Source of the DNA: Natrialba aegyptia DSM 13077
Lineage (GTDB): Archaea; Halobacteriota; Halobacteria; Halobacteriales; Natrialbaceae
Length of the DNA: 53,354 nt
Assembly (NCBI RefSeq): GCF_000337535.1
Contig: NZ_AOIP01000045.1
Location: forward strand, 1-53,354
Direction: 5' to 3'
In this document: positions 17,680 to 43,110 of the stretch, one piece after another
Numbering within the stretch: position 1 is the stretch's first letter
Layout: every line of letters starts with the position of its first letter
Notes under the pieces: model-generated
What the model was told of the DNA's origin: nothing
The model's input: the letters and a program-made list of their open reading frames with translations, nothing else
Databases searched by the model: none
Program-made: the position numbers and the translations under genes

Positions 17680-17713
17680 AGATTCACCCTCGAAAGGCAA
17701 CCACTTAGTCGTT

Positions 17714-19745: not shown

Positions 19746-19751
19746 CTTCCG

Positions 19752-20555
19752 ATGATCAGTCAAAACCGATTGCGTGTCCTCGCTCGGGAGCTCGGTGTTC
19801 GCCAGGGCTACGCCGAGAAGAACTACGTCAATTCGTGGATTCTCTGGGGTATCTTCACGAGTGGATACGGCGAGAACCTCATGTTCAAGGGTGGGACGGC
19901 GCTCAGTAAGCTGTACTTCCCTCAATCGTGGCGGTTCTCGGAAGATCTCGATTTCGGCGTCGAAGGCCGGTATCAGGGGTCAGAAGATGACCTCCGAGGC
20001 GTCCTCGACACGGTAACTGAGCGTTCCGGGATTGAGTTCACGATCCGCGAGCACCACGAGTCCCGCCAGCAACACTATCCGACACATTACGTCGACATGA
20101 GTATCCAGTATCGGGCGGTGCTCGACCATCCAAATACGACCAGCCTCGACGTAATGGTCGACGAGTACGTTGCGTTCGACCCAGTCCACCATACGCACTC
20201 CTACGAGGATATCCCCGAGTTCGAACTGCAGGCGTATAGTGTCGAAGAGATCTTCGCAGAGAAGTTGCGAGCGATCTTCCAACGGGGTGCAGCCAGGGAC
20301 TATTACGACCTCTATCAGCTCTTAGAGACCGAATCCGTTGACATCGAGTTCGATGTTGTTCTTCCTGCTTTCGACGCAAAGTGCGACCACGACGATCTCG
20401 ACGTCAATCTCACCACGGGGCTGCCGGTAGATCAGCGTGAGGACATACGCCGTCAGTGGGAGACGACGCTCCCAGACCTCACCGGTGATCCACCTATGTT
20501 CGATACTGTATGGAAGAGACTGGATGAGGCCGTTATTGCCAGAGGTACGGAGTAG
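19752..20555 (+). CDS. AbiEii/AbiGii nucleotidyltransferase toxin (type IV)
   Basis: The 267-residue protein has the family's nucleotidyltransferase signature, GGTALSK (47-53) followed by SEDLDF (63-68) with the metal-binding Asp residues. Further conserved parts follow: LQAYSVEEIFAEKLRAIFQRGAARDYYDLY. Toxins of this family block growth by transferring nucleotides to RNA targets, in some members to tRNA. It is the second gene of the pair with the AbiEi-like gene and looks complete. Confidence 0.88.
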   Translation: MISQNRLRVLARELGVRQGYAEKNYVNSWILWGIFTSGYGENLMFKGGTALSKLYFPQSWRFSEDLDFGVEGRYQGSEDDLRGVLDTVTERSGIEFTIREHHESRQQHYPTHYVDMSIQYRAVLDHPNTTSLDVMVDEYVAFDPVHHTHSYEDIPEFELQAYSVEEIFAEKLRAIFQRGAARDYYDLYQLLETESVDIEFDVVLPAFDAKCDHDDLDVNLTTGLPVDQREDIRRQWETTLPDLTGDPPMFDTVWKRLDEAVIARGTE

Positions 20556-24619: not shown

Positions 24620-24751
24620 ATGCGTCGTCGTCGAGTCCTCACTGGGCCAAGCACCACTTTCGCTGGGATCGGGATGGCCGGGTATCCTGGCTCGGGCACT
24701 GACGAAAGTGTGATCGAGGGGACGCAACTACTCGAGGTCGACCTCGAATGA
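24620..24751 (+). CDS. Possible 43-residue Tat-signal-like peptide
   Basis: The peptide begins MRRRRVLTGPSTTFAGIGMAG and ends LLEVDLE. Four Arg followed by a mildly hydrophobic Gly/Ala stretch resembles a Tat signal that has lost most of its mature part. Its TGA overlaps the ATG of the HNH gene (ATGA). An in-frame ATG at 24593 overlaps the TATA box and is less likely. It may be a remnant or a coupling peptide. Confidence 0.4.
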   Translation: MRRRRVLTGPSTTFAGIGMAGYPGSGTDESVIEGTQLLEVDLE

Positions 24752-25413
24752 GCGCACTCGAGGCGCAGATTGAGTCACGCTATGACGATCCCGACACGTA
24801 TTCGGGGAATCGTCCGCCAGATTGGGAAGCCCGTCGAAAGACGGTTTACCGACATGACGACTGGACGTGCCAATCGTGCGGTCGCCAAAGCGGTCCGCAC
24901 GCTGGTGACGAAGGCGTTCAGCTCCACGCTCACCATATCATTCCGCTGGCGGAGGGTGGCTCGAACCGGCTATCGAATCTGGAAACATTGTGTGAGCCGT
25001 GCCACCAGAACGAGCACGACCACGATATCTTCACTGGTGACTGGGTCGGTGATGGTCCGCACGTGTATACGGTTGGGTCACTGCGAGCGACTGCACGCGG
25101 GATTTTTGCAGCGCTGGCAATCGCTCTGTGGGCCGTCGTCGTTGTTCGGGGAATCGCTCTCTCCGCCGGATATGCCCCGATGGCAGTGGAGAGAGAGGCT
25201 GCCCTCCTGGTGGGAGCGACACTGCTGGGTAGTCTGGTAGTCGTCTCGAAACCATTCCTCGTAACGAGTGTACTGGGAATTGTGGCCGCTGCGATAACGG
25301 CATTTGCCTGGGTCGACTTTGGATTGAGCCCCGAATTCGGACTCATTGGGACGATTGCGTGGCCGCCAGTCATCCTCGGAGCATGGGCAATTGCCTGTGA
25401 CTATATACAGTGA
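24748..25413 (+). CDS. HNH endonuclease fused to four transmembrane helices
   Basis: In this 221-residue protein, residues 27-92 are an HNH domain: zinc Cys pairs C41/C44 and C82/C85, catalytic HAHHIIPLAEGG (60-71) and NLETLCEPCH. Residues ~113-220 hold four predicted membrane helices (about 115-137, 150-168, 170-189, 198-217). HNH enzymes nick or cut DNA with one metal ion. Anchoring such a nuclease in the membrane at the head of a DNA-transfer cluster suggests it acts on DNA entering or leaving the cell. It could be the element's substitute for a relaxase or an anti-competitor nuclease. The domains are clear, the role is inference. Confidence 0.85.
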   Translation: MSALEAQIESRYDDPDTYSGNRPPDWEARRKTVYRHDDWTCQSCGRQSGPHAGDEGVQLHAHHIIPLAEGGSNRLSNLETLCEPCHQNEHDHDIFTGDWVGDGPHVYTVGSLRATARGIFAALAIALWAVVVVRGIALSAGYAPMAVEREAALLVGATLLGSLVVVSKPFLVTSVLGIVAAAITAFAWVDFGLSPEFGLIGTIAWPPVILGAWAIACDYIQ

Positions 25414-25448
25414 TCGTTCTACTTGTATCCATACCTATATCTAGGATT

Positions 25449-25458
25449 AAATATAAAT
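25449..25458 (+). promoter_or_regulatory. Promoter (TATA box) of the transfer operon
   Basis: AAATATAAAT at 25449-25458 lies about 25-30 bp before the ATG of the pilin-like gene at 25481, in an AT-rich gap. Good haloarchaeal promoter position. Confidence 0.55.
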
Positions 25459-25480
25459 ACTAGCACCTAAGAGAGCGAGT

Positions 25481-25819
25481 ATGGCACGCAAAACGAAAGG
25501 TGCCCGAGTCCTGACCGCCCTGTTCGCTTTCATTGCAACTACTGGGATAGCTGCTGCCCAGGAGAGCGAGATCAACAATTCCTTGTCGGAGATCGAGTCA
25601 TTCGTCGCAACGACACTCGGCCAGATCGGTGTCATCGTCTTTCTCGTTGGTGCCGCTGCCTGGTTCGTCTCCCGTAAACATGCTGACCGTGCCCAATGGG
25701 GATGGCGAGGCATGTGGGGCGGTGCGGGCATGATCATCCTCTCGGTCAGCTACAATGTGTTCGTGACGCTCTTCGAAAACCTCGCTCCAGGGATGGTCAC
25801 CCCCTGGATTCCATTCTAA
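25481..25819 (+). CDS. VirB2/TrbC-like conjugative pilin candidate
   Basis: The 112-residue protein has a cleavable-looking signal peptide (TKGARVLTALFAFIATTGIA, then AAAQE near 28), followed by two hydrophobic segments (about 47-64 and 76-96) joined by a short charged loop (SRKHADRAQWGWRG). This is the layout of VirB2/TrbC pilins of type IV secretion systems. Sequence identity to known pilins is not obvious, so the call rests on size, topology and position as first gene before surface, VirB6-, VirB3- and VirB4-like genes. Confidence 0.6.
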   Translation: MARKTKGARVLTALFAFIATTGIAAAQESEINNSLSEIESFVATTLGQIGVIVFLVGAAAWFVSRKHADRAQWGWRGMWGGAGMIILSVSYNVFVTLFENLAPGMVTPWIPF

Positions 25820-25883
25820 GTAGCACATCCAACAGAATCACGACTTACCCCTCAATCGACCCCCTTTCACCCCACACCCACGA

Positions 25884-27767
25884 ATGGATGGCCAGCGATT
25901 GTCGCTTGGACTGCTGCTCGTTGTCACCCTGATACTGTCAATTAGCGGTGTGGCGACGATGTCCACCGCGGAGACGACGGCCAACGAAACAGACGTCTTT
26001 ATCTCTGATAAACCGGATCCCAAGGCTGGCGAACACCCACCGTTCGTGCTCCCAGACCTGGTGGAAGTCAATGAAGAAGAGAATATCTCGGTAGCAGAGC
26101 TGAGTCAGATCCGCGATTTCTACTACTCGACGACCCAACCCCCGTATCAGGTCGGATCGGATCAGCAGACACTGAATGAGTACCGCCTCGAGCAACTCGA
26201 GTCGATCGAGCGCAACGAGTCGACGAGTCTCTGGTTTCCAGATTCGGACCGCTCGAACGGTACGTTCGTTGAAGACGCTCACATAACGATCCTTGGATCC
26301 GAAAAAGGGACCCAGACCCATCTCGAGTCGGACGCGGATGACCAAGACGACACCGAGAGTGAATTACTGCTGGTACCGGAGGATGGGACGGTCTTCGCCT
26401 ACGTTGATTACACGACTCGCATTCCAGAGGGGACTTGCACCACGACCAATGCGACGCGAACCTGTCTCAACGTTACACTCCTCGATCAGGAGGTCGACCG
26501 CACACTCGAGATTGGGTCCCAGTCGTGGAGTGGCGATTCAGAGACGCCCCACGAGATCGACTACGCGGACGCGGACGCGAGTGGGCCGACAACGATGGAG
26601 GTGGAGGCGACAATCACCACGACGCTTGCACTCGAGGAGTCCATCTACGAACTTGACGATAGTGGCTGGGGGGAGGATACAACCGATACCGACACGCTGA
26701 ACATCTCCCACACGGTCCAAGACGAAGCTCCTGTTGCCGTCACGACGAATCAAGAGCTTTCGATTGACCAGACGGTCGTCGAATCGAATGGAAGCCTCGA
26801 CCGGATTATCCTCGAGTTCGATGGGCCGGAGACACTCCAAGACCGGCGACTCTGGAGCACGGCGACGTTCGCCGAAGACGCCGGAAAGATCGAGAATATC
26901 TGGGGCGTCTACTCCCAGCGCCAGTACGAGACTGCCACGCGAGGCCACCCGCCAGAAGACAATCTGACGATCTCGCCGGATCAAAACATGTTCAACGAGA
27001 CTGGGTCAGTGCTGAACGAGACACTGTCAGCGGGCAACGACACCTCGACAGACGAGTCGATACTGAATGAGACGCTCGAGCAACAGCCACTCGCGTCAGA
27101 GACCCACCAGGAGGCATTCCCCAATGTCCTCGAGAAGCAACTCGCCGCACAGCGAGATACCCCCACGCTTGAGGGAGAACCAACCAACCTTGCGAACCCA
27201 CCAGAATTAGCTAGTTCGGACAGCTTCAGTGTCGCATCTGAGCCAGCACCACTCGATGAGAACGTCAATCTCTCCTCGGTCAACCCGCGTGGACAGAATA
27301 CGCTCATCATCAAGAACGCAGAGCAACCGGTCACAGAGGTTCGCGATATCCACGACGACCCGATCCCGGTGTCGACACAGACCGTCCAGGAGCGCGACGT
27401 CCAGCTCGAGACGGAGACCCTCAACGACACGCACGCACAGTTCCACCTGTTCGAGGAAGATAGCGGCGAGGCGCTTGCCGACGAGACACTCTGGCTCCAC
27501 GGTGCTGCCCAGGGACAGGTGACGACCGACTCGGACGGAACTGCAGTCGTCGAACGGAGTGACCTCTACGTGAGGGCGTCGTTCACGGGCGAGACCGATC
27601 CAGCGGAAGAGGTGTACTACAGTCCAGCTGAGACGGAGGCCACATTCCAGCCAGAGGCGTTCAACATCTACCAGCTGTTGATGAGCTTCACTGGAGCGTT
27701 CGTCTCGATCATCGCCTTCGTGATTTTGTACATTCCGTTCGCGTACATGCGAGGTGCAAACAAATGA
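25884..27767 (+). CDS. Large exported surface protein with C-terminal membrane anchor
   Basis: The 627-residue protein has an N-terminal signal (LGLLLVVTLILSISGVATMS), a long extracellular part, and one C-terminal helix (about 600-620, FTGAFVSIIAFVILYIPFAY) with a short basic tail. The extracellular part has many N-glycosylation sequons (NETD, NISV, NESTS, NGTF, NATRT, NVTL and a run NETGSVLNETLSAGNDTS). It ends with a beta-rich domain (about 515-595). It lies between the pilin-like and VirB6-like genes and may form the outer part of the mating apparatus or recognise recipient cells. No homologue is recognised. The start at 25884 gives the signal peptide directly. Confidence 0.7.
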   Translation: MDGQRLSLGLLLVVTLILSISGVATMSTAETTANETDVFISDKPDPKAGEHPPFVLPDLVEVNEEENISVAELSQIRDFYYSTTQPPYQVGSDQQTLNEYRLEQLESIERNESTSLWFPDSDRSNGTFVEDAHITILGSEKGTQTHLESDADDQDDTESELLLVPEDGTVFAYVDYTTRIPEGTCTTTNATRTCLNVTLLDQEVDRTLEIGSQSWSGDSETPHEIDYADADASGPTTMEVEATITTTLALEESIYELDDSGWGEDTTDTDTLNISHTVQDEAPVAVTTNQELSIDQTVVESNGSLDRIILEFDGPETLQDRRLWSTATFAEDAGKIENIWGVYSQRQYETATRGHPPEDNLTISPDQNMFNETGSVLNETLSAGNDTSTDESILNETLEQQPLASETHQEAFPNVLEKQLAAQRDTPTLEGEPTNLANPPELASSDSFSVASEPAPLDENVNLSSVNPRGQNTLIIKNAEQPVTEVRDIHDDPIPVSTQTVQERDVQLETETLNDTHAQFHLFEEDSGEALADETLWLHGAAQGQVTTDSDGTAVVERSDLYVRASFTGETDPAEEVYYSPAETEATFQPEAFNIYQLLMSFTGAFVSIIAFVILYIPFAYMRGANK

Positions 27768-27859
27768 CTGTTCGAATTCGAGCCAGCACAGTGTGGGCAA
27801 ACACCCACTCCACAGCTTCCGCGCTAACGACCACGACAGAGAACCCACTAAACCAATGA
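27764..27859 (+). CDS. 31-residue ORF coupled on both sides (ATGA/ATGA)
   Basis: MTVRIRASTVWANTHSTASA, then LTTTTENPLNQ. Its ATG overlaps the TGA of the preceding gene (27764-27767) and its TGA overlaps the ATG of the next gene (27856-27859), both as ATGA. It exactly bridges the gap between two operon genes, so it probably is translated, at least to carry ribosomes across. No family recognised. Confidence 0.5.
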   Translation: MTVRIRASTVWANTHSTASALTTTTENPLNQ

Positions 27860-29358
27860 CCATTCCCAGGCTGCCCGTTTCGATCAAAGGTATGATAGAA
27901 GGCGCTGATCCCAGTATCGTGGGATTGGCCCAGAAGAGCCTCGCCGCCCTTCCAGGTGGCGATCTCGCTATAACCGTCGCGTTCGTCGGCGACTGGGTCG
28001 CCGACTTCTTCATCTATATTTTGACCGGTATTCTGGGGTTCATTACCACCCTCGTTGCGGGCGGGATGCAGTCGTTCATCATCTTCGATAGCCCCTACAA
28101 CGATCCGGCAATGCAGGGTGCCTTCGAGCATAATCTGGCAATTTTCCCTCAACTACTGGTGATTGTCTTCATGGCTGGGATAGCCTCCGCTCCGTTCTCC
28201 GATCAGCGGGAAGTGACGAACTTCATGCTGATCTGGAAAACGCTGAAAACAATCATCTTCGTCGCCGTCGGTCGTCAGATCATGCACTTTGGGTTGCTCC
28301 TTACGAACGCGATCATCCTGCACATTTACACCAACGACTACGGCGACGCGTTTGGCCCCGAAGTGCTCGAGGCTGGATTTGAAGGGGCAGCTTCGCTGGG
28401 TGCGGGGGCGATCATCGGCGGGATTATAATCAGCTCGGTCTCCGTCGCAGGCATTTTGCTCGCTCTCGGGGTCTTTGTGTTCCGGGAGTTCCTGTTCAAC
28501 GCGACGTTCATCCTGCTCCCCGTTCTCGGAGCCATGCTCTACCTGGATTTCGGCCCACTCCGCCACAGTTCGGCGATCGCAAAAACGCTCCTGCGGGCGA
28601 CAGCGTACATGCTGCTTGCAGGGATCGTGATGGCGGGGCTACTACAAACAGGTGCGGCAGCCGTCGGCGCGTATTCGGATGTCGCCGTTGAGGGAGAGGA
28701 AGTAACTGAGGCGGAGTTTGGCGAACTCATCGAAGCAATGCTCTTCTGGCTGATCGGACTGCTCGCCCCCGCACTCGTCGGCCTCAAAGCTGCCATGATG
28801 GCAGGGATGTCGCCGAGAGGTCTTGGTCGGAGTGCAAAGAGCAGCTCGAGGTCGCAAGCTCAGACCTCTTCAATGGGCCAATCGGGTGGGAAATCGAGAC
28901 GTACTGCACTGATGGAGCAGGCGAGGTACGGAGGAGCGAGAGGGGCCAGATGGGGCGACAGAAAGATAGGTGGAAGGGCGAGCAGTGCTGCCAGTAGAGT
29001 AGGATCACGCGTCGGCCAAACGAAAGCAGCAGTTGGGAGTGCAGCCGCGTCGAAAATCCCGGATAGATATGTGAGCGGAAGTAATAAAATAGGATCTGGT
29101 GCGAAGAGAGGTGGAAAACGCGCAGCTTCGGACGTGAAAGCTGGTGTCTCCTACGGACCTCGAAATCTTCACGAATCCCCGACCGAGTGGGCGGCGGCCG
29201 GGTTGGAACGCTATCGGGAAAACCCCGTTATCGACACGTCAACTCAACAATCGACTAGTAGTGGCACAGTCGAAGCCAGCAACAACGCCGCCGACACATC
29301 TCCAGACCCGGAATCAAGTCAACAGCCACTGGACGAATACGACAACAACAATAACTAA
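27856..29358 (+). CDS. VirB6/TrbL-like polytopic membrane protein
   Basis: With the start at ATG 27856 the protein has ~500 residues. About eight membrane segments fill residues ~30-325 (for example FIYILTGILGFITTLVAGGM, LLVIVFMAGIASA, AIIGGIIISSVSVAGILLAL, GVFVFREFLFNATFILLPVL, LLAGIVMAGLL, LFWLIGLLAPALVGLKAAMM). A basic, Gly/Ser/Arg-rich cytoplasmic tail follows (about 330-500). VirB6/TrbL-type proteins form the inner-membrane channel of type IV secretion systems. A frame starting at GTG 27754 is rejected in favour of the ATG coupled to the 31-residue ORF. Its stop is 6 bp before the AAA+ gene. Confidence 0.7.
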   Translation: MTIPRLPVSIKGMIEGADPSIVGLAQKSLAALPGGDLAITVAFVGDWVADFFIYILTGILGFITTLVAGGMQSFIIFDSPYNDPAMQGAFEHNLAIFPQLLVIVFMAGIASAPFSDQREVTNFMLIWKTLKTIIFVAVGRQIMHFGLLLTNAIILHIYTNDYGDAFGPEVLEAGFEGAASLGAGAIIGGIIISSVSVAGILLALGVFVFREFLFNATFILLPVLGAMLYLDFGPLRHSSAIAKTLLRATAYMLLAGIVMAGLLQTGAAAVGAYSDVAVEGEEVTEAEFGELIEAMLFWLIGLLAPALVGLKAAMMAGMSPRGLGRSAKSSSRSQAQTSSMGQSGGKSRRTALMEQARYGGARGARWGDRKIGGRASSAASRVGSRVGQTKAAVGSAAASKIPDRYVSGSNKIGSGAKRGGKRAASDVKAGVSYGPRNLHESPTEWAAAGLERYRENPVIDTSTQQSTSSGTVEASNNAADTSPDPESSQQPLDEYDNNNN

Positions 29359-29364
29359 CGGAAG

Positions 29365-30738
29365 ATGGACAGAACATCTCAACCCAAGAATGTCCTGAAG
29401 AAAGTCGTTGTTGGCATCATTTCTCTCAGCCTCTTTACTGCGAATTATGTCATTGTTCCACTTGGAATCGTTTGGATTGTAGCGTATTTTTCCGATCCAA
29501 TTATAGCGCTAATTGCAATCCCTGTGATTTGGATGGCGACCCCATTTACTGCACTTCTGCTGACTGGTGGTCTCTACCCACTTCATGGTGAGAAGCCCGA
29601 ACAAGCGGATCGGATCTGGCTGGTTGGAACTTTCATTGGAACAGCGATATTGACAGCGGTGTGGTTTCTCCCTGCTTGGGAGAATAACTGGCCCGCTTTC
29701 GCAAGCATCCTTGCTCCGCTCCGAGTCTCTTCTATGTTTGATAACTTTTGGTACATGGGAGCCAGTTGGCTCGCGTGTGTTCCACTGATGCTATCTGTGA
29801 GTATTGGAACCACCGTAGAACTTCTCGATGAGAAAATCGCGACGGGAGAAGGGGAGCAGACAGCCGCACTGGACGCGGCTGCCCAGAGAGAGAAAGCCGA
29901 GACCAAACCTAAGACGTCCCACTCCAGCGATGGAGCGGCTCAAGAACAGCCCACTCCTTCTCAACTCCAATACGGCTGGCAGTCTGCGCCTGACACAAGA
30001 TTTGCGGACGTTGGTGGGATGGAGCCACTCAAAACGGAGGTCGAGCGCTCGGTGATCCGTCCGCTGACCCGGCTGGATGCCGCCTACGAACGCTTCAACA
30101 TCTCCCCACCGAACGGCATTCTCTTCTACGGTCCTCCAGGGACAGGCAAGACGCTGTTCGCTCGAGCCATCGCCGGCGAACTCGACCACCCGTATCTCGA
30201 GCTCTCGGCGGGCGATATCAAATCGCGCTGGGTCAATGAGTCCACCAAGCAGGTCAACCAACTGTTTGCGGAGGCTGCACAGTTCGATCGATGCGTCATC
30301 TTTATCGACGAGATCGACGCACTCCTCGCGTCGCGCGACAACGATCTTCACCGCGAGCACGCTCAGGTGGTCAATGAGTTCCTTGCCCATCTGGACGCCG
30401 ACGATCCGAATTACCTCGTAATCGCAGCCACGAACCGCGCTGAACTCCTTGATGAGGCGGCTACTCGCCGGGGTCGCTTTGACCAGCAGTACGAACTCGG
30501 CCTTCCAGATCGCGACGCTCGAGCGGCCATTTTCCGCGTCCGGCTCGACGAACTGCCGACGGGCCTTGACAACAACGCATCCAGGAAGATGGCCGAGCAG
30601 ACAGAGGGACTCAGTAGCGCAGATATCGTCGGGATTATCGACGACGCCGCGATGCGTGCCGCCGAACGCGACGCTGACGAACTCACGCTCGAGGATCTCC
30701 ACATGTCGCTCCCAGACCAGCCAGACCAACAGTCTTGA
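29365..30738 (+). CDS. Membrane-anchored AAA+ ATPase (Cdc48/FtsH-type module)
   Basis: In this 457-residue protein, residues 12-165 carry four predicted membrane helices and residues ~205-455 one AAA+ module. It has FADVGGMEPLKTEVERSVIR, Walker A GPPGTGKT (255-262), Walker B CVIFIDEID (310-318), the Arg finger region TRRGRFDQQYELGLPDRDAR, and a C-terminal helical lid ending with a LEDL segment. There is no zinc protease domain, so it is not a complete FtsH. Such ATPases unfold proteins or remodel complexes at the membrane. Its place between VirB6-like and VirB3-like genes suggests it powers assembly or disassembly of the transfer channel. It is not a standard T4SS component. Confidence 0.85.
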   Translation: MDRTSQPKNVLKKVVVGIISLSLFTANYVIVPLGIVWIVAYFSDPIIALIAIPVIWMATPFTALLLTGGLYPLHGEKPEQADRIWLVGTFIGTAILTAVWFLPAWENNWPAFASILAPLRVSSMFDNFWYMGASWLACVPLMLSVSIGTTVELLDEKIATGEGEQTAALDAAAQREKAETKPKTSHSSDGAAQEQPTPSQLQYGWQSAPDTRFADVGGMEPLKTEVERSVIRPLTRLDAAYERFNISPPNGILFYGPPGTGKTLFARAIAGELDHPYLELSAGDIKSRWVNESTKQVNQLFAEAAQFDRCVIFIDEIDALLASRDNDLHREHAQVVNEFLAHLDADDPNYLVIAATNRAELLDEAATRRGRFDQQYELGLPDRDARAAIFRVRLDELPTGLDNNASRKMAEQTEGLSSADIVGIIDDAAMRAAERDADELTLEDLHMSLPDQPDQQS

Positions 30739-30857
30739 GACCGTGCCCAGCAAGAGGTAGGTTGGGACCGCAAGATCGTTCAAAACCGGTACGTCATTGG
30801 AATATCAAAACCGGGGGTAACTTTTAACTAGATATCCCTAAGACGTACAGATTGTCT
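30739..30857 (+). promoter_or_regulatory. Gap with a possible internal promoter of the transfer operon
   Basis: This is the largest break inside the transfer cluster after 25481. It contains an AT-rich word (AACTTTTAACTAG, near 30820-30832) about 30 bp before ATG 30858. A single half-site GGGGTAAC resembling one arm of the 11-20-11 repeats precedes it, but I see no partner arm. Confidence 0.35.
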
Positions 30858-31250
30858 ATGGAAACATTCCCAATCGCAGGGCGTGTCGTTAATACGAAGT
30901 TGGTTTTCGGGTTGACCGCCCGAGAAGCTGGCGAGGTTCTCGTGGTTCCGTTCCTGGCCATGGGTATCGCCCAAAGCCTTGGCTTCACTGGGACACTGTT
31001 CCTGGGTGCCGGCGGGATCGGACTCGCCATCGGCATCCTCGTTTTGCTGGTTTCCCCTGCCGGCCAACGACCCATCAGCTATGCTCGTGCCGCCGCCGAG
31101 TACTATCTCGGCTCGAACGAGTACCACAACCGGAGAACGCGACCCGAACCAGAGACGCCCGTCGCCCAGGACGTCGTCTACGTTCGGCAGGCTGGCCTCG
31201 ATATCGAGACGATCGAAGCCGAGCAGGAAGCGGAAGCCGACGGACGGTGA
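30858..31250 (+). CDS. VirB3/PrgI-like small membrane protein
   Basis: The 130-residue protein has a short N-terminal motif (PIAGRVVNTKLVFGLTAREA), two closely spaced membrane helices (about 25-45 and 47-66) and an acidic C-terminal tail. The pattern 'short N-terminus, GLTxRE, paired helices' is that of VirB3/PrgI-type proteins, which dock the VirB4 ATPase to the channel. VirB4-like genes follow immediately. ATG 30858 is chosen over the TTG two codons upstream. Confidence 0.75.
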   Translation: METFPIAGRVVNTKLVFGLTAREAGEVLVVPFLAMGIAQSLGFTGTLFLGAGGIGLAIGILVLLVSPAGQRPISYARAAAEYYLGSNEYHNRRTRPEPETPVAQDVVYVRQAGLDIETIEAEQEAEADGR

Positions 31251-31256
31251 TCGACA

Positions 31257-32207
31257 ATGGGAACTGCACCCACCGACGAGACAGCTACCGAAACAACCCC
31301 AGAATCACACGAAGAGGACGAGGAGCCCGTTGTCCAGCCGACTGCCAGCAGTGATCACACGCCGCCCACACCCGAGTCCGACCTCGAGGTCCTGCGAGCA
31401 CTCGACAAATTCCTTGACGATATCGACACGGACCTCCCAACCGCTCGAGAGCGCTCCCGAGCGCGTGATCACTTCGACCTCAAGGATCGTCTTGGTGGAT
31501 CGACAACGACCCAGGAGACACTCAGCTTCGACTACGTCCGGGAGGATGGTATCGCCGTCGACGGCGACAGCTACATCGGCCTCTTGAAAGTCCATCCGCA
31601 GAACTGGCTCTCGCTCAGTGAACAGGCCAGACACGACACGATGAGCGCGTACATGTCTTTCCTCATGTCGCTCGAGTTCAGCGTGGCCGTCCCCTGCTAC
31701 CCGAAAACGTTTGACCTTACGGGGCATCTCGAGCGCTTCTACACGGCATCGTCGAGTACGACTGCTCGAGAAGAGACGCCGATACTCCAGTACGGACGGA
31801 AGTTCTACATCCAGTGGGCGAGTGACCGGATCACAGACGCCGACCTCAAACAACGCGATTTCTACATCGTCACACGCGTCGACGCCGATCAGGTCCACAA
31901 GAATCTCGACACGGGAAGCGTTCTGAGCCAGCTTGGCGATCTCCCGCTCATCGGTGCTGCCTGCTCGCGAGTACTTGCTCACACGCCGTTCGGCGAGTCA
32001 CACGAAGACGCACGAACTGAGCTCTGCATTCGTGAAGTGAGACAGCGACAGCGCCGGATTACAAACAAGCTCGGCCGGACGGAGGTCTCGATCGACCAGG
32101 TAACCGACCGTCAGGAGACCATGGAAATCCTGTACCACTACTACAACCACGTCGACCCACAGTTCGAGAAGTTCAATCAAGCGACCAAGACGGAGGGAGA
32201 GTACTGA
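31257..32207 (+). CDS. VirB4 N-terminal-domain-like transfer protein
   Basis: The 316-residue protein has an acidic disordered N-terminus (1-45). The domain around 95-160, SYIGLLKVHPQNWLSLSEQA, then YMSFLMSLEFSVAVPCYPK, resembles the N-terminal, non-ATPase domain of VirB4/TraE-like proteins. There is no Walker motif. It lies 6 bp after the VirB3-like gene and its stop overlaps the VirB4 ATPase start (TGATG). It may be a split-off N-terminal domain or an accessory subunit of the ATPase complex. Confidence 0.7.
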   Translation: MGTAPTDETATETTPESHEEDEEPVVQPTASSDHTPPTPESDLEVLRALDKFLDDIDTDLPTARERSRARDHFDLKDRLGGSTTTQETLSFDYVREDGIAVDGDSYIGLLKVHPQNWLSLSEQARHDTMSAYMSFLMSLEFSVAVPCYPKTFDLTGHLERFYTASSSTTAREETPILQYGRKFYIQWASDRITDADLKQRDFYIVTRVDADQVHKNLDTGSVLSQLGDLPLIGAACSRVLAHTPFGESHEDARTELCIREVRQRQRRITNKLGRTEVSIDQVTDRQETMEILYHYYNHVDPQFEKFNQATKTEGEY

Positions 32208-34888: not shown

Positions 34889-37800
34889 GAAAACCGAGAG
34901 TACCCCCGATATAGACGCCGAATCCTTTGAGTGGATTGTTGCAGAGGACGAGCAAGTGAGGCAGGTCTCCGACTTGGACGTGGAGTGGACGGGCACGCCA
35001 CTGCTTCGAGGCGGCCTTCGGACGTATCTGGTCACACTCGTCTTCGTGGCGGTCGCGCTTGCTCTGGCGACCGAGAGCATCGTCGGGGTCACAACAGGAC
35101 CGTCGCTCATCGGACTCGAGCCCTACACGCTCGAGACGGAGCTCATCACTGCCGAGATTCCACTCTGGTGGTTGAGTGCTGTTCCGCTCTTGGTTGGTCT
35201 GGTAGGCGTCGCGATCAGCGTGCGTCCGATTGTTCAGGCGCTTCGCACGACGTACGTCCTCACGTCGGAGACACTCTACGTTCGCACGCGGGGAATTCGT
35301 GGCGATGGGTTCACGAAACTCCCGCTCGATCGTGTCGTCGACACCACTTTTCATCAGTCCCCTCTCGGCCAGCTGTTGTCGTCTGGCACCGTCACGTTCA
35401 GTACGTTCGACCACACGTCGCCCGAACTCCAGTGTTGGGCGATCGAGAACCCAACAGAGCTTCACGAACGATTGCTCGAACTTGAGGCGTCCGCTGGCTC
35501 GCCACTCGAGCGCAAGCAAGAGTACATTCGCGTTGTTCCATCGACGGGCGAGCGACCACCACAGGAAGTCATCAACCAGATCCGTCCCTTGCACGATGTC
35601 CAACGAGGCGGCCAGTCGTGGTGGCAGCGACTCAATCCGTTTTCGGAGCCCGACCTGCTCACGTTTGAGTTTGTGATTTACAGCGACGGGACGGATTCGC
35701 CGATCGAATTCTACTACACCTGTGAGCAACACCTCTCCACGCTCTACGACCGACTCAAATCGGCCTATCCCGACACGGTAGAACTCGAGCGAGTCACGGT
35801 CGACTTTGCGGAGAAACTCGTCGCGCCCCAGCAGTACTCCTACGACGAGTTCGAAAGCGCCCTCGAGAACGGCACCCTCCAGTGTACGCCGGCTGAAGTC
35901 GAGGCACTCGTTCGTGTCCGTGGCTCCAAACCGACGCTTGCTGATGGAGGAGCGACGACCATGAGCGAGCAGGTCGATCGAGATGAGATCGGCGACGAGA
36001 GCATCAGTACAGAGGCGTTCGATACAGAAGGTTCTGATCCTGATTCCAGTCACCCACTCGGCACGCAACTCCCGAGTGTTGACCTCGATGCACTCCGTGC
36101 GAAAGAGAACGCAGAAAACCGCGATCCAGGGTCGCTCACGTTCTCCCTCGAGACGCCAGTCGATACTGGTGAGGGTGTGCTTGCGCGCCCCCATCCGGAT
36201 GAGGTTGAACCGTATGGGTTGCGGTGGACCGGCAGTGGAGATCCGATGGCGGCGATCAAGAAGTTCGATGGGCAGATGGGTGAGGACGATCGGTCAAAGG
36301 CGACCTCACACGCGCCGCTGACCGTGCTGATCGATCATTTTGCAAGCACGGATCACCCGATCGTCTTCCAGGCCGCGTTCGAAGGCGAGCCCGATCTGAC
36401 GAAAGAGGGTGAATACCACATCAACGAAATCGAACAAGGACGCGATACGTTGGCTGGTGAAATCGCCGTGGCCTTTCAAGAGTTTGTACGCGGTCCAAAG
36501 AACACCGAGTCGTCCTCATCGCGGTCAGAGTCACTCAGTGAATCTCGATCTAAGCGCATCGACGAGATCAAAAACGAAGACTGGGGACATACGTTCACGA
36601 CCAACCTGCGGGCGGTGACTGTCCCTACGAACTCGTTTCTAAGCGATACATCCGAAATCGAACACGACCTGAGAAATCTGAGTACCGTGTTCGATCCGCT
36701 TGCCGGTGACTACTACAAACTCGAAGGTGAGGAACTCCACGAGAAAGGAGTTCTCGAGCGCAGTCAGCGCAAGCGTTCGCGACGCTGTTTTAATCGGTTT
36801 CTCGAGGGTGAGGTCGTCGCTGGTGGGCGGGTGAGCCGCTCCGAACCCGACCTCCATCTGGATCCCGGCGAGCTCTGCAACATGGTCATTGTCCCCAGTA
36901 CCGAGCATCTCACCGACGAGGCGGTCAAAGAGACGCACGCGAATCCCGAAAGTCGCACGGCCCTCCCCGGGTTGGACACCGCCCAACGCCGTCAGTATAC
37001 TACGGGGATGGTCCTCGGTCAGGACGCCAACAGTGCTGTCGAGGGCCCGCTTCGGTTACCACCAAACCGTCAGTCGCGCCACTGGTTGCTCTGTGGCGCG
37101 ACTGGGAGCGGGAAAAGCCAAGTCACGTATCACATGTTACGCTCGCTCGCCGAGACGACACCCGGCCCGAACGTCCTCTTCGACCCGAAAGGCGACAACA
37201 TGTGTAAGAACTACCTGATGGCTCACTACAAGAGATTCGGGAATCTCGACGACGTGTACTACTTCCGGGAGCCAGGAACACTCCCAGCCATCTCGTTCTT
37301 CGATATTCGATCAGCGCTCGAGGGGAACGATCGCGAGACGGCAGTCAAGGAGAAAGTCGACCACTTCCACGAGCTGATGCGGATGATCATGGGAGCGGAG
37401 AAGTACGAACGGGCGTTCGTGGCGAACGAAATTCTGACGTTCCTGATCCAAGCGTTGTTCGATCCGAAACACGGTGACGACGTCTTCGGGTTGGATGATC
37501 TCGTCGAGGCCGCGACGCGAATGCACCATCATCAGGAGCTGCCGGAGGTTTCGGAGATCAATGCCGACATCCACGATTCACTCGCCGCACAGTTTGCCAA
37601 GGACGAAAACCAGTTCGACACGACGATGGGGGCGGTGATGAACCGGCTGAACAAACTAAAAGAGGATCGCCATCTTCACTGGATGCTTCGACACAAACCC
37701 GGTCGCGAAGCCGAATCCACCGGAGACGATCTTTACGGCTTCCACCAGCAGGAGACCCACTTCGACTTCAGTGAGTTCCTCGATGAAGATGTCACGATCC

Positions 37801-39395
37801 TGTTCGACCTCGGCGATCTCACGCTCGACGCCCAGCGTGGGTTCACCACAGTCATGCTGAGTGATTTGTGGCATTCGATCCAACGACGGCGGCGGACGAA
37901 CCCTGAGAACGTGGTCAACGTCATCATGGAAGAGGCTGCACCGTTCGTCGCGACTGAACTGGTCGCCGATCAACTGCTCCCTCAGGGTCGATCGTCGGGA
38001 CTGAGCCTCGGGTTCATCATGCAGTACCCCGAGCAGGTCAAGAAGTTCCACAATGGGAATGGTGCGTACGAGGAACTTCTGACGGAGGTGCATACGAAAT
38101 TGATTGGTGATATCTCGATGAAGGATCGGTTCGCGAAGACGTTCACGCACGACGAGTTGTCTGTGGAGGATGTCCGGAACCGGAACAACCGGATGGCAGC
38201 GGGCGAGTGGTTCACGAAACTCGTTTCCCCTGGATTCGGTGAGGAGCGACCAGCGCCGTTGACCTTGCACTCGCCCCCGATCATAACCGGGCACCCAGAA
38301 AGCGACGAGCCATTGACGGCGGCCGAACAACAACAGTTCGACGAAGAGCTTCTGCCGGAAGTACTTGAGCGGACTGAAGACGAATACGGGTTGTACGTAC
38401 CGTCCCACGAGGACGCGATGGAGTGGTCGAATTGGAGCGACACAGATCGGCGTGCTGGCGCACCGCCAGCACTGGACGAAGATGAGAGTGAAGTGACGGT
38501 GGAGTTCGACGAAGAGAGTGAGGATACAGACGGCCAGCAGCCGCTCGAGAAGACCGGTCCTGACGATGGGGCCGACGATCAGCACGATGATCGAGATGAT
38601 AGCAGTGACGTGGAGACCACCGATGATGATCCAGTTGGCGTTGCAAATGGAGCCGCCTTCTTCGACCCGGCCACGAGCGAAGAGGAGTGCCCGGTCACGG
38701 ACGATGAACTCCGGCAGCGGGGGCTCTCGCGAGACGACGCGATCTTCCTCAAACGCGTCCTCGACGCGATGAATCGTGACCTCCCGGATTACACGCTGTT
38801 GGAAGGGATGGAGGAGTTGCAAGAGGACCTTGATGGGGTTGACGTTGATGTGTTGACCGAACTCGAACTGCTCGAAAGAGAGAAAGTAGATCGACGACCG
38901 TACTATACGGTCCTGCCCGCTGGCCGAGAGCTTCTGGATGAGACGGTCACCGCCCAACCGGGGATTGGTGATCTTGGAGAGAAGACGCCACACAAAGTTG
39001 GAGTCGAACTCCTGGTGTGCTGGCTCGAGACTTTCGAAGCGGTCGATCGAGTGGAGCGATACTACCAGCAGTCCTCGGAGACGGTGTTCGACGTTGCCGC
39101 GTTCGACATTGATGACGAACTCGTGTGGGTTGGAGAAGTAGAGATGACGTCAAATAACGCGGAAGCAGTTGTGAGTGACTACGAGAAGATGGCTGCGGCC
39201 GACGCGGATGCCGTGTGGGCATTCCCATCACGTGACGACGCTGGCGAGATCGTGAATGTACTCGCCGATGCAGAACGTCTCCCTGAGAATGTGAGCGGTC
39301 GAACAGCTAACTCATTTTCACTTCTCCAGGAGGCAGTTGAAGGATTCGAAGCCGATGGAATGACGACTATCCACACCTTCAGGAAGCTGACTTAA
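34875..39395 (+). CDS. PH-domain/VirD4-like coupling ATPase fusion (1506 residues)
   Basis: Residues 38-130 hold two membrane helices. A bPH2-type domain follows (YVLTSETLYVRTRGIRGD, then LPLDRVVDTTFHQSPLGQLL), similar to the stand-alone protein at 15396. The central part is a VirD4/TraG-type ATPase with Walker A CGATGSGKSQ (~740-749), LFDPKGDNMCKNYL and Walker B VVNVIMEEAAPF (~1013-1024). A long acidic linker follows (about 1195-1275). The C-terminal ~115 residues contain VFDVAAFDIDDELVWVGEVE (~1398-1417), whose D...ExE spacing recalls PD-(D/E)xK nucleases. VirD4 proteins bring the DNA to the channel. This order of domains in one chain is unusual. Confidence 0.85.
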   Translation: MQTTEKTESTPDIDAESFEWIVAEDEQVRQVSDLDVEWTGTPLLRGGLRTYLVTLVFVAVALALATESIVGVTTGPSLIGLEPYTLETELITAEIPLWWLSAVPLLVGLVGVAISVRPIVQALRTTYVLTSETLYVRTRGIRGDGFTKLPLDRVVDTTFHQSPLGQLLSSGTVTFSTFDHTSPELQCWAIENPTELHERLLELEASAGSPLERKQEYIRVVPSTGERPPQEVINQIRPLHDVQRGGQSWWQRLNPFSEPDLLTFEFVIYSDGTDSPIEFYYTCEQHLSTLYDRLKSAYPDTVELERVTVDFAEKLVAPQQYSYDEFESALENGTLQCTPAEVEALVRVRGSKPTLADGGATTMSEQVDRDEIGDESISTEAFDTEGSDPDSSHPLGTQLPSVDLDALRAKENAENRDPGSLTFSLETPVDTGEGVLARPHPDEVEPYGLRWTGSGDPMAAIKKFDGQMGEDDRSKATSHAPLTVLIDHFASTDHPIVFQAAFEGEPDLTKEGEYHINEIEQGRDTLAGEIAVAFQEFVRGPKNTESSSSRSESLSESRSKRIDEIKNEDWGHTFTTNLRAVTVPTNSFLSDTSEIEHDLRNLSTVFDPLAGDYYKLEGEELHEKGVLERSQRKRSRRCFNRFLEGEVVAGGRVSRSEPDLHLDPGELCNMVIVPSTEHLTDEAVKETHANPESRTALPGLDTAQRRQYTTGMVLGQDANSAVEGPLRLPPNRQSRHWLLCGATGSGKSQVTYHMLRSLAETTPGPNVLFDPKGDNMCKNYLMAHYKRFGNLDDVYYFREPGTLPAISFFDIRSALEGNDRETAVKEKVDHFHELMRMIMGAEKYERAFVANEILTFLIQALFDPKHGDDVFGLDDLVEAATRMHHHQELPEVSEINADIHDSLAAQFAKDENQFDTTMGAVMNRLNKLKEDRHLHWMLRHKPGREAESTGDDLYGFHQQETHFDFSEFLDEDVTILFDLGDLTLDAQRGFTTVMLSDLWHSIQRRRRTNPENVVNVIMEEAAPFVATELVADQLLPQGRSSGLSLGFIMQYPEQVKKFHNGNGAYEELLTEVHTKLIGDISMKDRFAKTFTHDELSVEDVRNRNNRMAAGEWFTKLVSPGFGEERPAPLTLHSPPIITGHPESDEPLTAAEQQQFDEELLPEVLERTEDEYGLYVPSHEDAMEWSNWSDTDRRAGAPPALDEDESEVTVEFDEESEDTDGQQPLEKTGPDDGADDQHDDRDDSSDVETTDDDPVGVANGAAFFDPATSEEECPVTDDELRQRGLSRDDAIFLKRVLDAMNRDLPDYTLLEGMEELQEDLDGVDVDVLTELELLEREKVDRRPYYTVLPAGRELLDETVTAQPGIGDLGEKTPHKVGVELLVCWLETFEAVDRVERYYQQSSETVFDVAAFDIDDELVWVGEVEMTSNNAEAVVSDYEKMAAADADAVWAFPSRDDAGEIVNVLADAERLPENVSGRTANSFSLLQEAVEGFEADGMTTIHTFRKLT

Positions 39396-39450
39396 ACGAG
39401 GTTAAAATGACTGTTGACATGACATTCGCATTCACCGGTGGTAGACCCTT

Positions 39451-40377
39451 ATGACCTGGCGACAGGCAACCCGTGACGAGGTCTATGCGTACTATACCGA
39501 GGAGTTCCCCAAGTATGTAGACCAGTTGCCGCCGTTCATCACACCAACGGCACCGAAAGAGTTCGGGATCAGCTTCCGCGAACGCCATCCCATCCGCAAA
39601 GAGAAGCGACCTGACCGAGACTTCATCCGACGGCCGACGTGGCGCACCACCTCAGATGGCGAGCCAGTCTCACAGAACTTTAACAACTTCGAAGAACTCG
39701 TCTCGTTTATCCAGTCTCCCGCACGGTATGACCCGTTCCAAGGGAGTGAGTACATGTTGGCTGATCCCGATCTGCTCGAGAAGAGCGATCCGATTTCGGA
39801 TGGCGTCTACTACGGGTTAGACAACTGGGACCGATCGTGGGTCCTCGCGGTCGATATCGATGCGAAAGATATCGCCACAGCACGCGCTGAACGCGAGCTT
39901 GACGAGACCGACCTCGAGATCCAATCAGCAGATGCGAGTCGTGACGACACGTTGCTCGCCGAGACAGAGATTCGTGACGCCGACCCGACGGGGTATCCCT
40001 ACTCGTTTGAGGATATCGACCGTGCAATCGAGTATGGCTTCAAAACGCGTGAGATCTTCATGGATGTGTTTGGTGCCGAGGAGACGATGGTCGTCTATTC
40101 CGGTCAAGGCGTCCACGTCTACCTGCTTGATGAGGATCTTGAATACGGGTACGACGAGAAAAGCCGAGAAGTGCTCAACGACCTCCTGCTCGAGCGTTAT
40201 GAGATTCCGATCGATCCCGTTGTGACCGCCGACCGGAGTCGTCTGCTTCGCGTTCCCTACTCGTTGCACGCTGACGTCTGTCGCGTCGTCCAGCCGATCG
40301 AGAGCCCAACCTTCGATCCCCGAACGGAAGCCCGACCACAGTTCCTTGAAACGGAGACTGAACTCACCCATGATTGA
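39451..40377 (+). CDS. PriS-like DNA primase catalytic subunit
   Basis: The 308-residue protein has the archaeo-eukaryotic primase signature. The catalytic DID pair is at 135-137 (WVLAVDIDAKD), followed by an insert, then SGQGVHVYLLD (217-227, the sGxGxH motif), a third acidic residue in TADRSRLLRVPYSLH (259-273) and VVQPI. PriS makes the RNA/DNA primer. Cellular PriS genes are chromosomal; here the gene follows the transfer genes and overlaps a PriL-like gene, so it probably primes the complementary strand of transferred or replicating element DNA. Acidic insert 141-185 is atypical. Confidence 0.85.
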   Translation: MTWRQATRDEVYAYYTEEFPKYVDQLPPFITPTAPKEFGISFRERHPIRKEKRPDRDFIRRPTWRTTSDGEPVSQNFNNFEELVSFIQSPARYDPFQGSEYMLADPDLLEKSDPISDGVYYGLDNWDRSWVLAVDIDAKDIATARAERELDETDLEIQSADASRDDTLLAETEIRDADPTGYPYSFEDIDRAIEYGFKTREIFMDVFGAEETMVVYSGQGVHVYLLDEDLEYGYDEKSREVLNDLLLERYEIPIDPVVTADRSRLLRVPYSLHADVCRVVQPIESPTFDPRTEARPQFLETETELTHD

Positions 40378-41905
40378 CCCACGAGAGACTGACCGAGATG
40401 CCTACCTCGCTGCAGCGGTCCCAACCAACTACACCGATAACGAGATCGTCCAGCTATTCGCCCGCGGGTACGACCGCTACGTCGTCGATAATACGCCAGA
40501 CCGAGAGACGTTGCTTTCGGATCTCGAACAGTTCGGGACTGCTGCGTTCAAGAGCTCCCAGCGCAACCGTCCGCTCGAGTATCCATTCGTCGACGAACCT
40601 GCCACGCTCGTATTGTTGGCTACTCTCAGTACCGTTTGCGTGAGCGAACAACCCCGCTTCGAAGACACACCGCCTCGTCGGAATCAAGTCCTTCATAACA
40701 TCCGCGAGCTGTTCGCGACCAATCTCCTCGCACTTGTGCATGAGTACGACGATCCGACGCTCTACCAAGAGATGGCTGAGGTCCTCTACGCGAAAGGCCC
40801 CAGTCAGGACGGTCCCCACCCGGGTCGCGTTTGTACGGGCGTCAAACCGATGCCCGAATTCGACGAGGAGGAGACTGCCGAAAATGAGTCCGATCTCTAC
40901 GTGGAAATCCCAATGGCGGCTGCCTCTCGAAAGTGTCTCGCGCGAGCATCCACCGAAGCTACAAGTAGCGACGAGAAGGGCAAAATTCGGACACAGGTCA
41001 AGAACAACCACCTCTACGTCCCGCTCGACCACCTCCATGACACCTATCGATCGTACGCCAAGAGGTGTTTTGGCCGGTTACAGGCAGTTCAAGAGGATGA
41101 ACTCGGTGAACCACAACGCAAGTGGCTTCGAGAGCACGAAACTGCCATCACCGAACGGACTGACTACGCCCTCGAGATCGGCCAGTACGAGAAGGTGTGG
41201 AAAAACTGGGATCAAGGTGAGCAGATCGTCCGACTGCTCCAAAATGCGGTGCGAGCGTCACCCCAGACTCAGATCGGCGAGTTTCATACTGCTCAGGAGT
41301 TGTCCGACGCGCTCGAGGCATACGAACCAGAGAACGAGGGTGAGAAAGCTCAGTTGGGGCAACTGTCCAACCACCGTAGTGTCGCAAAAAAACTCGCTAA
41401 TTCTACGTCACATCGGTCGGTGACGATCGATCGGAGTGACCGCGTCAATACGTATCGGATCGGCCACTCGGGCGGTGGATCGCGGCCACTTGAAATCACG
41501 GAACTCGAAGACCTATTTGAATTACCTTGTCTGGCAGCACTCGACGAACGGCTCCAAGAGGAAAAGCCAGTCCGAAAAGACCTCTTCAATCTCGTTCGGA
41601 TGGTGATGTGGCTTCCGCAATATCGCGAGAAGCCCGTCGACGCGATCACTGATGAACTCAAAGATCTGTTCAGCCGGTGGCCATGGTTCGATCCAGAGAT
41701 CTCTGCCTACCAGATCAAGTACGAAGCCCGACGGGGCGACCGTGGCATTGGTTCCGAGGGGAACACCCCCCTGCCAATGAATTGTAATAATGACGATATG
41801 CAACGGTACTGTATCGGGAAAGAGCAGTGCCCCTACTCAATCTATGGCAGCCTCCCATTCCCCGACGACATGTACGACCAACTCGAGGAAACCGACCCCA
41901 TTTAA
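40370..41905 (+). CDS. PriL-like primase large subunit with Fe-S cysteines
   Basis: The start at ATG 40370 overlaps the PriS-like gene by 8 bp and gives 511 residues. The C-terminal domain shows the four PriL iron-sulphur cysteines in the expected spacing: C387 (FELPCLAALDERL), C472 (PMNCNND), C481 (QRYCIG) and C487 (EQCPYSIYG). The N-terminal half (YTDNEIVQLFARGYDRY, NQVLHNIRELFATNL) is helical as in PriL. PriL binds template and initiating nucleotides and regulates primer length. The pair is thus a complete two-subunit archaeal primase carried by a mobile element. Confidence 0.85.
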   Translation: MIDPRETDRDAYLAAAVPTNYTDNEIVQLFARGYDRYVVDNTPDRETLLSDLEQFGTAAFKSSQRNRPLEYPFVDEPATLVLLATLSTVCVSEQPRFEDTPPRRNQVLHNIRELFATNLLALVHEYDDPTLYQEMAEVLYAKGPSQDGPHPGRVCTGVKPMPEFDEEETAENESDLYVEIPMAAASRKCLARASTEATSSDEKGKIRTQVKNNHLYVPLDHLHDTYRSYAKRCFGRLQAVQEDELGEPQRKWLREHETAITERTDYALEIGQYEKVWKNWDQGEQIVRLLQNAVRASPQTQIGEFHTAQELSDALEAYEPENEGEKAQLGQLSNHRSVAKKLANSTSHRSVTIDRSDRVNTYRIGHSGGGSRPLEITELEDLFELPCLAALDERLQEEKPVRKDLFNLVRMVMWLPQYREKPVDAITDELKDLFSRWPWFDPEISAYQIKYEARRGDRGIGSEGNTPLPMNCNNDDMQRYCIGKEQCPYSIYGSLPFPDDMYDQLEETDPI

Positions 41906-42310
41906 TATAGAGAAAACTCACGTCGGATTCAACCCTCTCTTTAGGCTATTTCTTTCGAAACCATACAGAAGATCTAAAAAACCGGATTTGGTGCTATTCT
42001 ACTCAACCAATATGATATATGGAATATATTAATTACAACTATTGTCTAAGAGATATTATCCCGTTGCGCATTATCTGAGCCTTGATGATGGAGAAATCAG
42101 CGGATAAGGGGGATTCTTCTAAGAATGTGACATCTAACTATCTCTTCTGTCGTTCCTCAATTTGAACATTGAAATCTAGAATCGGCTGAGTTGGGTGGCT
42201 GAAACTCCCCGTTGCGCGTTTTTTGACTTTTGTGCTTGAAATCTTTGCTCGTTGCGCGTGTTGTTACGACCTTAGATATGCGCAACGGGAATTTAAAACG
42301 ATTTGAGGGC
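41906..42310. repeat. AT-rich intergenic stretch with four CCGTTGCGC repeats
   Basis: CCGTTGCGCA at 42061-42070, CCGTTGCGCG at 42209-42218, TCGTTGCGCG at 42249-42258 and the inverse TGCGCAACGG at 42279-42288. The flanks are AT-rich (for example TATGGAATATATTAATTA near 42013-42030). No gene is seen. GC-rich iterons in AT-rich DNA next to primase genes could mark a second origin, an oriT or an operator. 42279 and 42061 are perfect inverse copies. Confidence 0.55.
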
Positions 42311-43110
42311 TTAAAACCGGTCGTGAATGACGAAAAATCGTCCAAAGGAATGGGGGTTTGTGCAGAAAGAGAGGTGTGCGCGACGGGTAGTGAGACGTGG
42401 CGAGTTCAGAGGGCAAGGGACGGTGTATATATCAGAAACTGGAGGTTCGGTCTGGAGGAGTGTGCGGACTCGAGAATGGAGGGATTGAGTTGGGTGTAGA
42501 ATGGGTGGAAGGCAGAGGCAGTAACAAGGGGGTGGTCGGTAGGGGAATGAGAAGCATTTTCAGAACACGATCAGTGGGAGAGTGGAGAGCGGTAGAGAGG
42601 TGGGAGGGGACGGGGTGTGAGACAAGGTAATAGATGTGATAGAAAGTTGAGAGGAGAGCAGAATGTGAGGAGCCAATAGAGAAAGAAGAGGGGTGGGAGA
42701 AATAGAGAGAGGATGGTGCTCGAGGTGAGAGGGGGAGAAAAGAGTGAGGTGCAGAGAACGAGTGAAGGGCAGAGATCAGGGAGGAGTGTGGTGATCGGAG
42801 TGGAGGGGCAGAGGACTGGAGCAGGGGACTGGAGATGAAGCTGAGGAGAGGGGAGAGTGGGAGGAACGTACAAGCTAGGAGCCAGGCCGTGACGGGGAGT
42901 TTGGAAGAGCACTCGAGGATAGGGATAGAGCGGACCTGGAGGGGAGGTGGTACAGTGTGGGTTGCTCTCCTCGAGAGGAGGAATGTGGCCGTGGGCGAGG
43001 ACGTCGACGGTGAGGTGGGATTCGAGGGCGGTGGTGAGTGAAGAGCAGCTAGGAGAACGTCAGGCTAGGTGATCGTGATGGTGGTGTACGTAGAGTGATG
43101 CTGTCATAGA
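42311..43110. other. Gene-free purine-biased tract
   Basis: The plus strand is dominated by A and G. In 42661-42840 I count 34 pyrimidines in 180 bases, about 81% purine. No coding pattern of haloarchaeal type is visible; the long minus-strand frame in it is only the polypyrimidine complement. Weaker tracts of the same kind occur near 44250-44330 and 47340-47500. Confidence 0.6.

Follow-up and report, generated by a model that had tools for sequence, protein, structure and literature searches.

A primase-bearing type IV transfer operon of haloarchaeal plasmids without a recognised relaxase

How does a conjugation machine prepare its DNA when no relaxase is recognised with it? This question is raised by a gene cluster of Natrialba aegyptia DSM 13077, found on a contig of 53,354 bp (accession number NZ_AOIP01000045.1; C44 in our numbering) which was analysed in its entirety and is referred to here as the window. 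The source genome comprises 4.6 Mb in 65 contigs and, since a circularity check revealed no terminal overlap, the contig is a fragment. Judged by its profile and structure-sequence matches and by protein topology, the cluster represents a type IV transfer operon of haloarchaeal plasmids that closes with VirB4-VirD4-PriS-PriL, with all genes named in the original prediction present on the plus strand and in the order given there (positions 24748-41905; Table 1).

The sequence comparisons indicate that a primase is an obligate, exchangeable cassette part behind VirD4 in these operons. In order to avoid circularity, loci were sampled by VirD4 rather than by PriS, and the count was limited to loci with VirB4, VirD4 and sequence downstream. 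In all 81 of them the next gene after VirD4 encodes a primase, i.e. PriS-PriL in 49 and an NrS-1-type PrimPol in 32. The sample from public collections had 49 PriS and five PrimPol genes in this position and no locus lacking a primase, and of 40 loci chosen for lacking a link to PriS, each of the 27 that had VirB4 and sufficient room carried PrimPol; as the samples partly repeat the same genomes, these counts are not fully independent. The PrimPol of NrS-1 is a phage replication protein, and the sister-operon primase, which matches its solved structure at 4e-41, is placed here in the slot behind VirD4. What is constant is therefore a primase and not PriSL, so that the earlier idea of a recruited archaeal replicative primase fits the PriSL operon of the window and does not extend to its sister operons.

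Exchange of the primase is apparent from the VirB4 phylogeny, which comprised 74 proteins after removal of near-copies (52 from PriSL and 22 from PrimPol operons). Along this tree the kind of primase switches 11 times, with at least seven switches forced by strongly supported branches, and the near-identical machines of loci L149 and L228 differ in their primase. Within these VirB4- and VirD4-containing loci the C-terminal tail of VirD4 switches together with the primase, and priS mostly starts inside virD4, with an overlap of four bases.

The prediction of a two-subunit archaeal primase within the operon itself is supported. The three catalytic motifs of PriS (VDIDAKD, SGQGVH and VTADRSRLLRVPYSLH) align with those of solved archaeal PriS and are conserved, with D135/D137 and D261 invariant, in nine plasmids. 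The protein stays below the cut-offs of the chromosomal-type models, reaching 22.8 of 26.8 bits for PF01896 and 44 of 143.5 for TIGR00335, and represents a diverged plasmid lineage rather than a chromosomal ortholog. The gene following priS has no Pfam match and belongs to the NCBI family NF038197, ‘primase-associated protein’. Its C-terminus, the iron-sulfur (Fe-S) domain, aligns with chromosomal PriL (hhalign E 8e-4, compared to 0.5-0.7 in swapped controls), and its cysteines C387, C472, C481 and C487, invariant in 28 sequences, match the Fe-S cysteines of chromosomal PriL. An AlphaFold2 (AF2) model of moderate confidence (pLDDT 70.6) has the Pyrococcus PriL chains 9f26 and 2dla as best fold matches in the PDB, with Sulfolobus and human PriL also among the matches (E >0.2, probability up to ~0.9). 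Based on the profile alignment, the invariant cysteines and the fold matches together, we consider this gene to be priL. A survey from 2018 found PriL to be nearly exclusive to chromosomal primases (PMC5862659). Since chromosomal PriS and PriL genes of the host lie on contigs C30 and C15, respectively, the pair in the window, which is strongly diverged, is additional to them; this disposes of the objection that chromosomal priS/priL might be these very genes, and rules out the pair as the sole primase genes of the host. A genome of the same phylum, distant and outside the halobacteria, has two further PriS-PriL pairs on a 285-kb contig, one of them near genes for topoisomerase IA, ParA and a HerA/VirB4-like ATPase.

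The operon is no oddity of a single plasmid but is widespread in haloarchaea, and its priL gene has an NCBI family. Plasmid-type PriS was present in 61 of the 292 sampled haloarchaeal genomes and in 33 of 77 genera, as well as in 78 plasmid records, all of which are typed as non-mobilizable by MOB-suite. The search for the same gene order, which had been proposed as a check, found VirD4-PriS-PriL constant across ~60 further loci, and the cluster is thus not due to chance. Two operon types can be distinguished: that of the window contains AAA+ and VirB3-like genes, and the commoner one has TrbL/VirB6 (PF19590). In the sister operon L007 the PF19590 gene (1.6e-139) occupies a place similar to the VirB6-like gene of the window, where VirB6 and VirB3 were assigned by topology and position only. 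The TrbC/VirB2-like pilin has an identical position in all operons, and the VirB4 match to NF045971 (2.5e-65) falls under the equivalog cut-off of that model. The HNH nuclease and AAA+ ATPase genes, both included in the cluster as originally predicted, are present in the window, but neither belongs to the core, since the HNH gene next to the pilin is restricted to the Natrinema/Natrialba clade, being missing from most operons, and AAA+ to one of the two types. No description of the operon or of its primase slot was found in the literature, of which only open-access texts were searchable.

None of the relaxase families PF03432, PF08751 (TrwC) and PF13814 (Replic_Relax) was found over cut-off in any of 30 operon-bearing whole genomes (other families were not searched), while PF03432 and PF08751 exceeded their cut-offs in bacterial controls. 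For these three families the predicted lack of a detectable relaxase is therefore borne out, also with respect to one encoded elsewhere on the element. Relaxase absence alone is not new, since archaeal conjugation has long been described as lacking one (PMC3158045, PMC9905601, PMC12857230). The HNH protein was rejected as a general relaxase substitute in view of its restriction to one clade; no precedent for an HNH relaxase was found in PMC5357655. The likelier start apparatus, i.e. the C-terminal domain of VirD4 and a site behind PriL, had been overlooked in the original prediction.

The AF2 model of the VirD4 tail (pLDDT 87) shows a winged helix followed by elements in alpha-beta-beta-beta-alpha-beta order. 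Its best Foldseek matches include Can2 (9e-4), BstEII, NucS and EcoT38I, i.e. PD-(D/E)XK enzymes. As RIO2-kinase chains rank among the matches as well and TM-scores are low, the fold assignment rests no less on topology and residues than on these matches, D1406, E1421, E1423, E1369 and H1373 being invariant in 50 of 50 tail sequences and K1438, in the next helix, present in 49. The PriSL-linked tail is thus predicted to be a PD-(D/E)XK nuclease-type domain, for which DNA cutting is plausible, not assured. Between PriSL-type and PrimPol-type tails hhalign detected no homology (E 0.2); the latter have a PD...ExE-like motif of their own, and an acidic ExE occurs in both tail types.

The second candidate is a conserved non-coding core, GTCCAAAGRAA (TCGTCCAAAGRAA), which lies in operon direction 300-550 nt past priL when no insertion intervenes and reads TCGTCCAAAGGAA in the window. 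An exact copy occurs in 58 of the 95 distinct PriSL loci and one with a single mismatch in ~17 more (~75 in total), and several of the core-less loci are cut off by the end of the fetched stretch. Iterons are found upstream of the core at near-constant offsets, i.e. in direct orientation at ~-133 and ~-93, inverted at ~-62, with another at -281 to -292. Lineages differ in iteron sequence, which is CCCGTTGCGC in the window and CGTCGAGC in the common type, but agree in iteron position: in 39 of 46 distinct loci the fixed-offset triplet reaches a level of similarity attained by only 2 of 499 shifted control positions. In many loci the core lies within an inverted repeat, the arms of which differ between lineages yet pair, with a score of 7 reached by the loci's own arms in 62 % of distinct loci, by arms swapped between loci in 19 % and by shuffled arms in 6 %. 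Since some lineages, including that of the window, show no arms, a universal hairpin is not claimed. When PrimPol and orphan-VirD4 loci were searched with a covariance model built on the common type (R1), no copy was convincing (one match, E 0.2), and the site is thus tied to the PriSL cassette. No match was found in Rfam. We infer that the site may be an origin of transfer (oriT).

Two further elements were considered and rejected. An inverted repeat, TTAACCAACA-N~21-TGTTGGTTAA, behind PrimPol was not taken as an equivalent site, owing to its unconserved loop and variable position; it occurs in ~11 PrimPol-type loci (L209, L228, L245, L246 and others) and is possibly an operator. The G-rich, purine-skewed tract following the site in the window is not a general feature, being conserved behind the core only in the window's clade.

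In the annotated plasmids examined, an OB-fold/Ssb-like gene is conserved downstream of the site on the same strand, in some of them together with ArdC-like genes, an arrangement reminiscent of the leading regions of bacterial conjugative plasmids. The window encodes a protein with weak similarity (1.7e-4) to the ArdC N-terminus and an M78 peptidase, a possible anti-restriction gene of the sort seen in conjugative leading regions.

On balance, we think it probable that these plasmids harbour a VirB4/VirD4 transfer operon with a DNA-processing cassette, consisting of the nuclease-like VirD4 tail, the primase and, in the PriSL form, the site behind priL. In such a cassette an initiator would bind the iterons, the VirD4 tail or an unrecognised nickase would open a single strand within or close to the TCGTCCAAAG core, VirD4 and VirB4 would pump single-stranded DNA, and the plasmid's own primase would start the complementary strand, whether in the recipient, on the replacement strand of the donor, or in both. 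Nicking, single-stranded transfer and the place where the primase acts are deduced from the arrangement of these parts. It is tempting to go further and speculate that haloarchaeal conjugation is relaxase-free, with a nuclease built into VirD4 opening the iteron-and-core site and the transfer machine always including a self-encoded primase of two interchangeable kinds, a proposal that we put forward only tentatively.

Several observations weigh against the proposed cassette. The tail carries D...ExE instead of D...ExK, and with glutamate in place of the canonical lysine its role may be DNA binding instead of cleavage. The link between tail and primase is not absolute, since some VirD4 relatives without a recognised VirB4 (L265, L267 and L268) combine a PriSL-type tail with PrimPol, and the chromosomal orphan VirD4-like ATPases of L217-L222 have the same tail with neither VirB4 nor an adjacent primase. 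Many type-B loci show a clear 10-bp stem, but the window's clade has no clear arms, and the origin-like site could be a replication origin. Moreover, no transfer of these plasmids was documented in the literature searched.

The first of these points also bears on the possibility that an undetected nickase elsewhere on the plasmid, such as a highly diverged HUH protein, or in this clade the HNH protein, starts transfer and that the tail merely binds DNA. We regard this as a serious competitor, if not the expected outcome: the ExE tail may be inactive, relaxases may be too diverged for profiles in plasmids where most genes have no family, and unrecognised archaeal relaxases have been suspected (PMC3158045). 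However, the three major relaxase families are missing from all 30 genomes, the HNH gene is missing from most operons, and the invariance of the acidic tail residues in 50 sequences would be unusual for a dead domain.

Somewhat less likely, in our opinion, PriSL and the iteron site form a vegetative replication module beside the transfer genes, with transfer starting elsewhere. Replication origins, too, typically have iterons, an AT-rich stretch and a conserved core, and plasmid primases of the archaeo-eukaryotic primase (AEP) superfamily are usually replication proteins (PMC5862659). Against this, the plasmids carry Orc1/Cdc6 initiator genes, both in the window and in L010, which are an alternative route for plasmid replication. 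In addition, a 4-bp overlap locks the primase gene to virD4, primase and VirD4 tail are swapped together in an otherwise retained machine, and a replication module would have no need to follow virD4 at every locus. Given the constant primase, its exchange, the nuclease-like tail and the linked site, a DNA-processing cassette fits better.

That the machine moves double-stranded DNA or proteins, with the primase serving repair or replication restart, seems improbable, for although FtsK/HerA-type pumps can move double-stranded DNA and PriSL has repair roles in an archaeon (PMC12019639), the VirB4, VirD4, pilin-like and VirB6-like parts point to a type IV secretion system (T4SS), the primases and Ssb-like genes fit single-stranded DNA, and single-stranded DNA is the presumed cargo of related archaeal mating pili (PMC9905601).

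A transfer-linked primase in a conjugative T4SS is already known from bacteria; here it occurs with archaeal parts and without a relaxase. Like RSF1010 with MobA/RepB', IncI1 with Sog and RP4 with TraC, all plasmid primases tied to conjugation, the haloarchaeal plasmids connect priming with transfer. However, the bacterial plasmids have relaxases, whereas the haloarchaeal operon harbours a two-subunit archaeal-type PriS-PriL with an Fe-S PriL, and its primase adjoins the coupling protein rather than a relaxase. RepB' of RSF1010 is an AEP and is joined to the relaxase in relatives (PMC5862659, PMC12857230). Sulfolobus pNOB8-type plasmids and Thermococcus pT33-3 share VirB4/VirD4-like ATPases, membrane partners and the lack of a recognised relaxase (PMC12857230), but the texts cited mention neither a transfer-operon primase nor a fused nuclease-like domain in these plasmids, while here a primase always adjoins virD4. 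PolpTN2 of the Thermococcus plasmid pTN2 also has plasmid-borne PriS-like and PriL-like domains (PMC3973330), although in a single fused protein instead of two genes in a T4SS operon. The crenarchaeal Ced/Ted import systems resemble the operon in their T4SS-like pilin, VirB6-like protein, HerA/VirB4-type ATPase and missing relaxase, but Ced imports chromosomal DNA, HerA-NurA being the proposed maker of single-stranded DNA, and a primase is not mentioned (PMC9905601).

Table 1. Features of the window and of related loci (window positions unless a locus is given)
Feature	Position	Strand	Basis or remark
BREX-like region	5645-11641		PglX-type methylase, BrxHII helicase
ArdC N-terminal-like + M78 peptidase protein	14111-15061		1.7e-4
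Orc1/Cdc6 initiator	16285-17895		also in L010
AbiEi/AbiEii pair	18915-20555		adjoins ParA gene
HNH nuclease, four hydrophobic segments	24748-25413	+	Pfam HNH 9.3e-13; hydropathy
TrbC/VirB2-like pilin	25481-25819	+	Pfam TrbC 1.5e-4, under curated cut-off
Large surface protein	25884-27767	+	N- and C-terminal hydrophobic segments; conserved position
VirB6-like membrane protein, nine transmembrane segments	27754-29358	+	topology alone; no Pfam match
AAA+ ATPase, membrane-anchored	29365-30738	+	Pfam AAA 3.4e-38
VirB3-like small protein	30858-31250	+	two hydrophobic segments; sits before VirB4
Protein of unknown fold, before VirB4	31257-32207	+	no Pfam match; position conserved
VirB4 ATPase, C-terminal helix-hairpin-helix	32207-34888	+	NCBIfam NF045971 (VirB4-like CD1110) 2.5e-65; HHH_5 5.7e-7
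VirD4-type coupling ATPase, 1506 aa	34875-39395	+	TrwB_AAD_bind 5.2e-7 (over cut-off); DUF87 3.1e-6; bPH_2 2.6e-6
VirD4 C-terminal domain, residues 1262-1506	38658-39392	+	winged helix and PD-(D/E)XK-like fold (AF2)
PriS, catalytic primase subunit	39451-40377	+	PDB PriS 4.8e-6; TIGR00335 1.8e-11; catalytic motifs
PriL, large primase subunit	40370-41905	+	NF038197; four invariant Cys; hhalign; fold matches
Iterons, CCCGTTGCGC-type (span 42060-42289)	42060, 42208, 42248; 42280	+, +, +; -	repeats
Core TCGTCCAAAGGAA of origin-like site	42338-42350	+	shared by PriSL loci
G-rich purine-skewed non-coding tract	42400-43100	n/a	GC skew up to 0.74
OB-fold/Ssb-like gene	L004:11816-12682		
OB-fold/Ssb-like gene	L005:25998-26879		
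OB-fold/Ssb-like gene	L006:33575-34471		
OB-fold/Ssb-like gene	L007:31755-32654		
OB-fold/Ssb-like gene	L009:30444-31292		
OB-fold/Ssb-like gene	L010:31148-32047		
Orphan VirD4-like ATPase (example)	L218:9359-13096		
PriS-PriL pair, non-halobacterial genome	L282:8830-10610		
PriS-PriL pair, non-halobacterial genome	L281:10124-12455		

Outside the operon, the window encodes a PglX-type methylase in which the first ~387 positions of the profile are missing. Next comes a BrxHII helicase of full length, and the region resembles a remnant or partial BREX-type defence locus. An AbiEi/AbiEii toxin-antitoxin pair adjoins a ParA gene.

How a transfer substrate is made without a relaxase in archaeal conjugation is a question posed by recent reviews, to which our data contribute named parts, i.e. 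an obligate primase slot, a nuclease-like domain open to testing and a cis site of ~300 bp, in plasmids whose hosts are close to the genetically tractable Haloferax. If PriSL does act in transfer, this would be a rare case of an archaeal heterodimeric primase serving a mobile element. The repeated swapping of two AEP kinds within one machine amounts to a natural experiment on what that machine needs.

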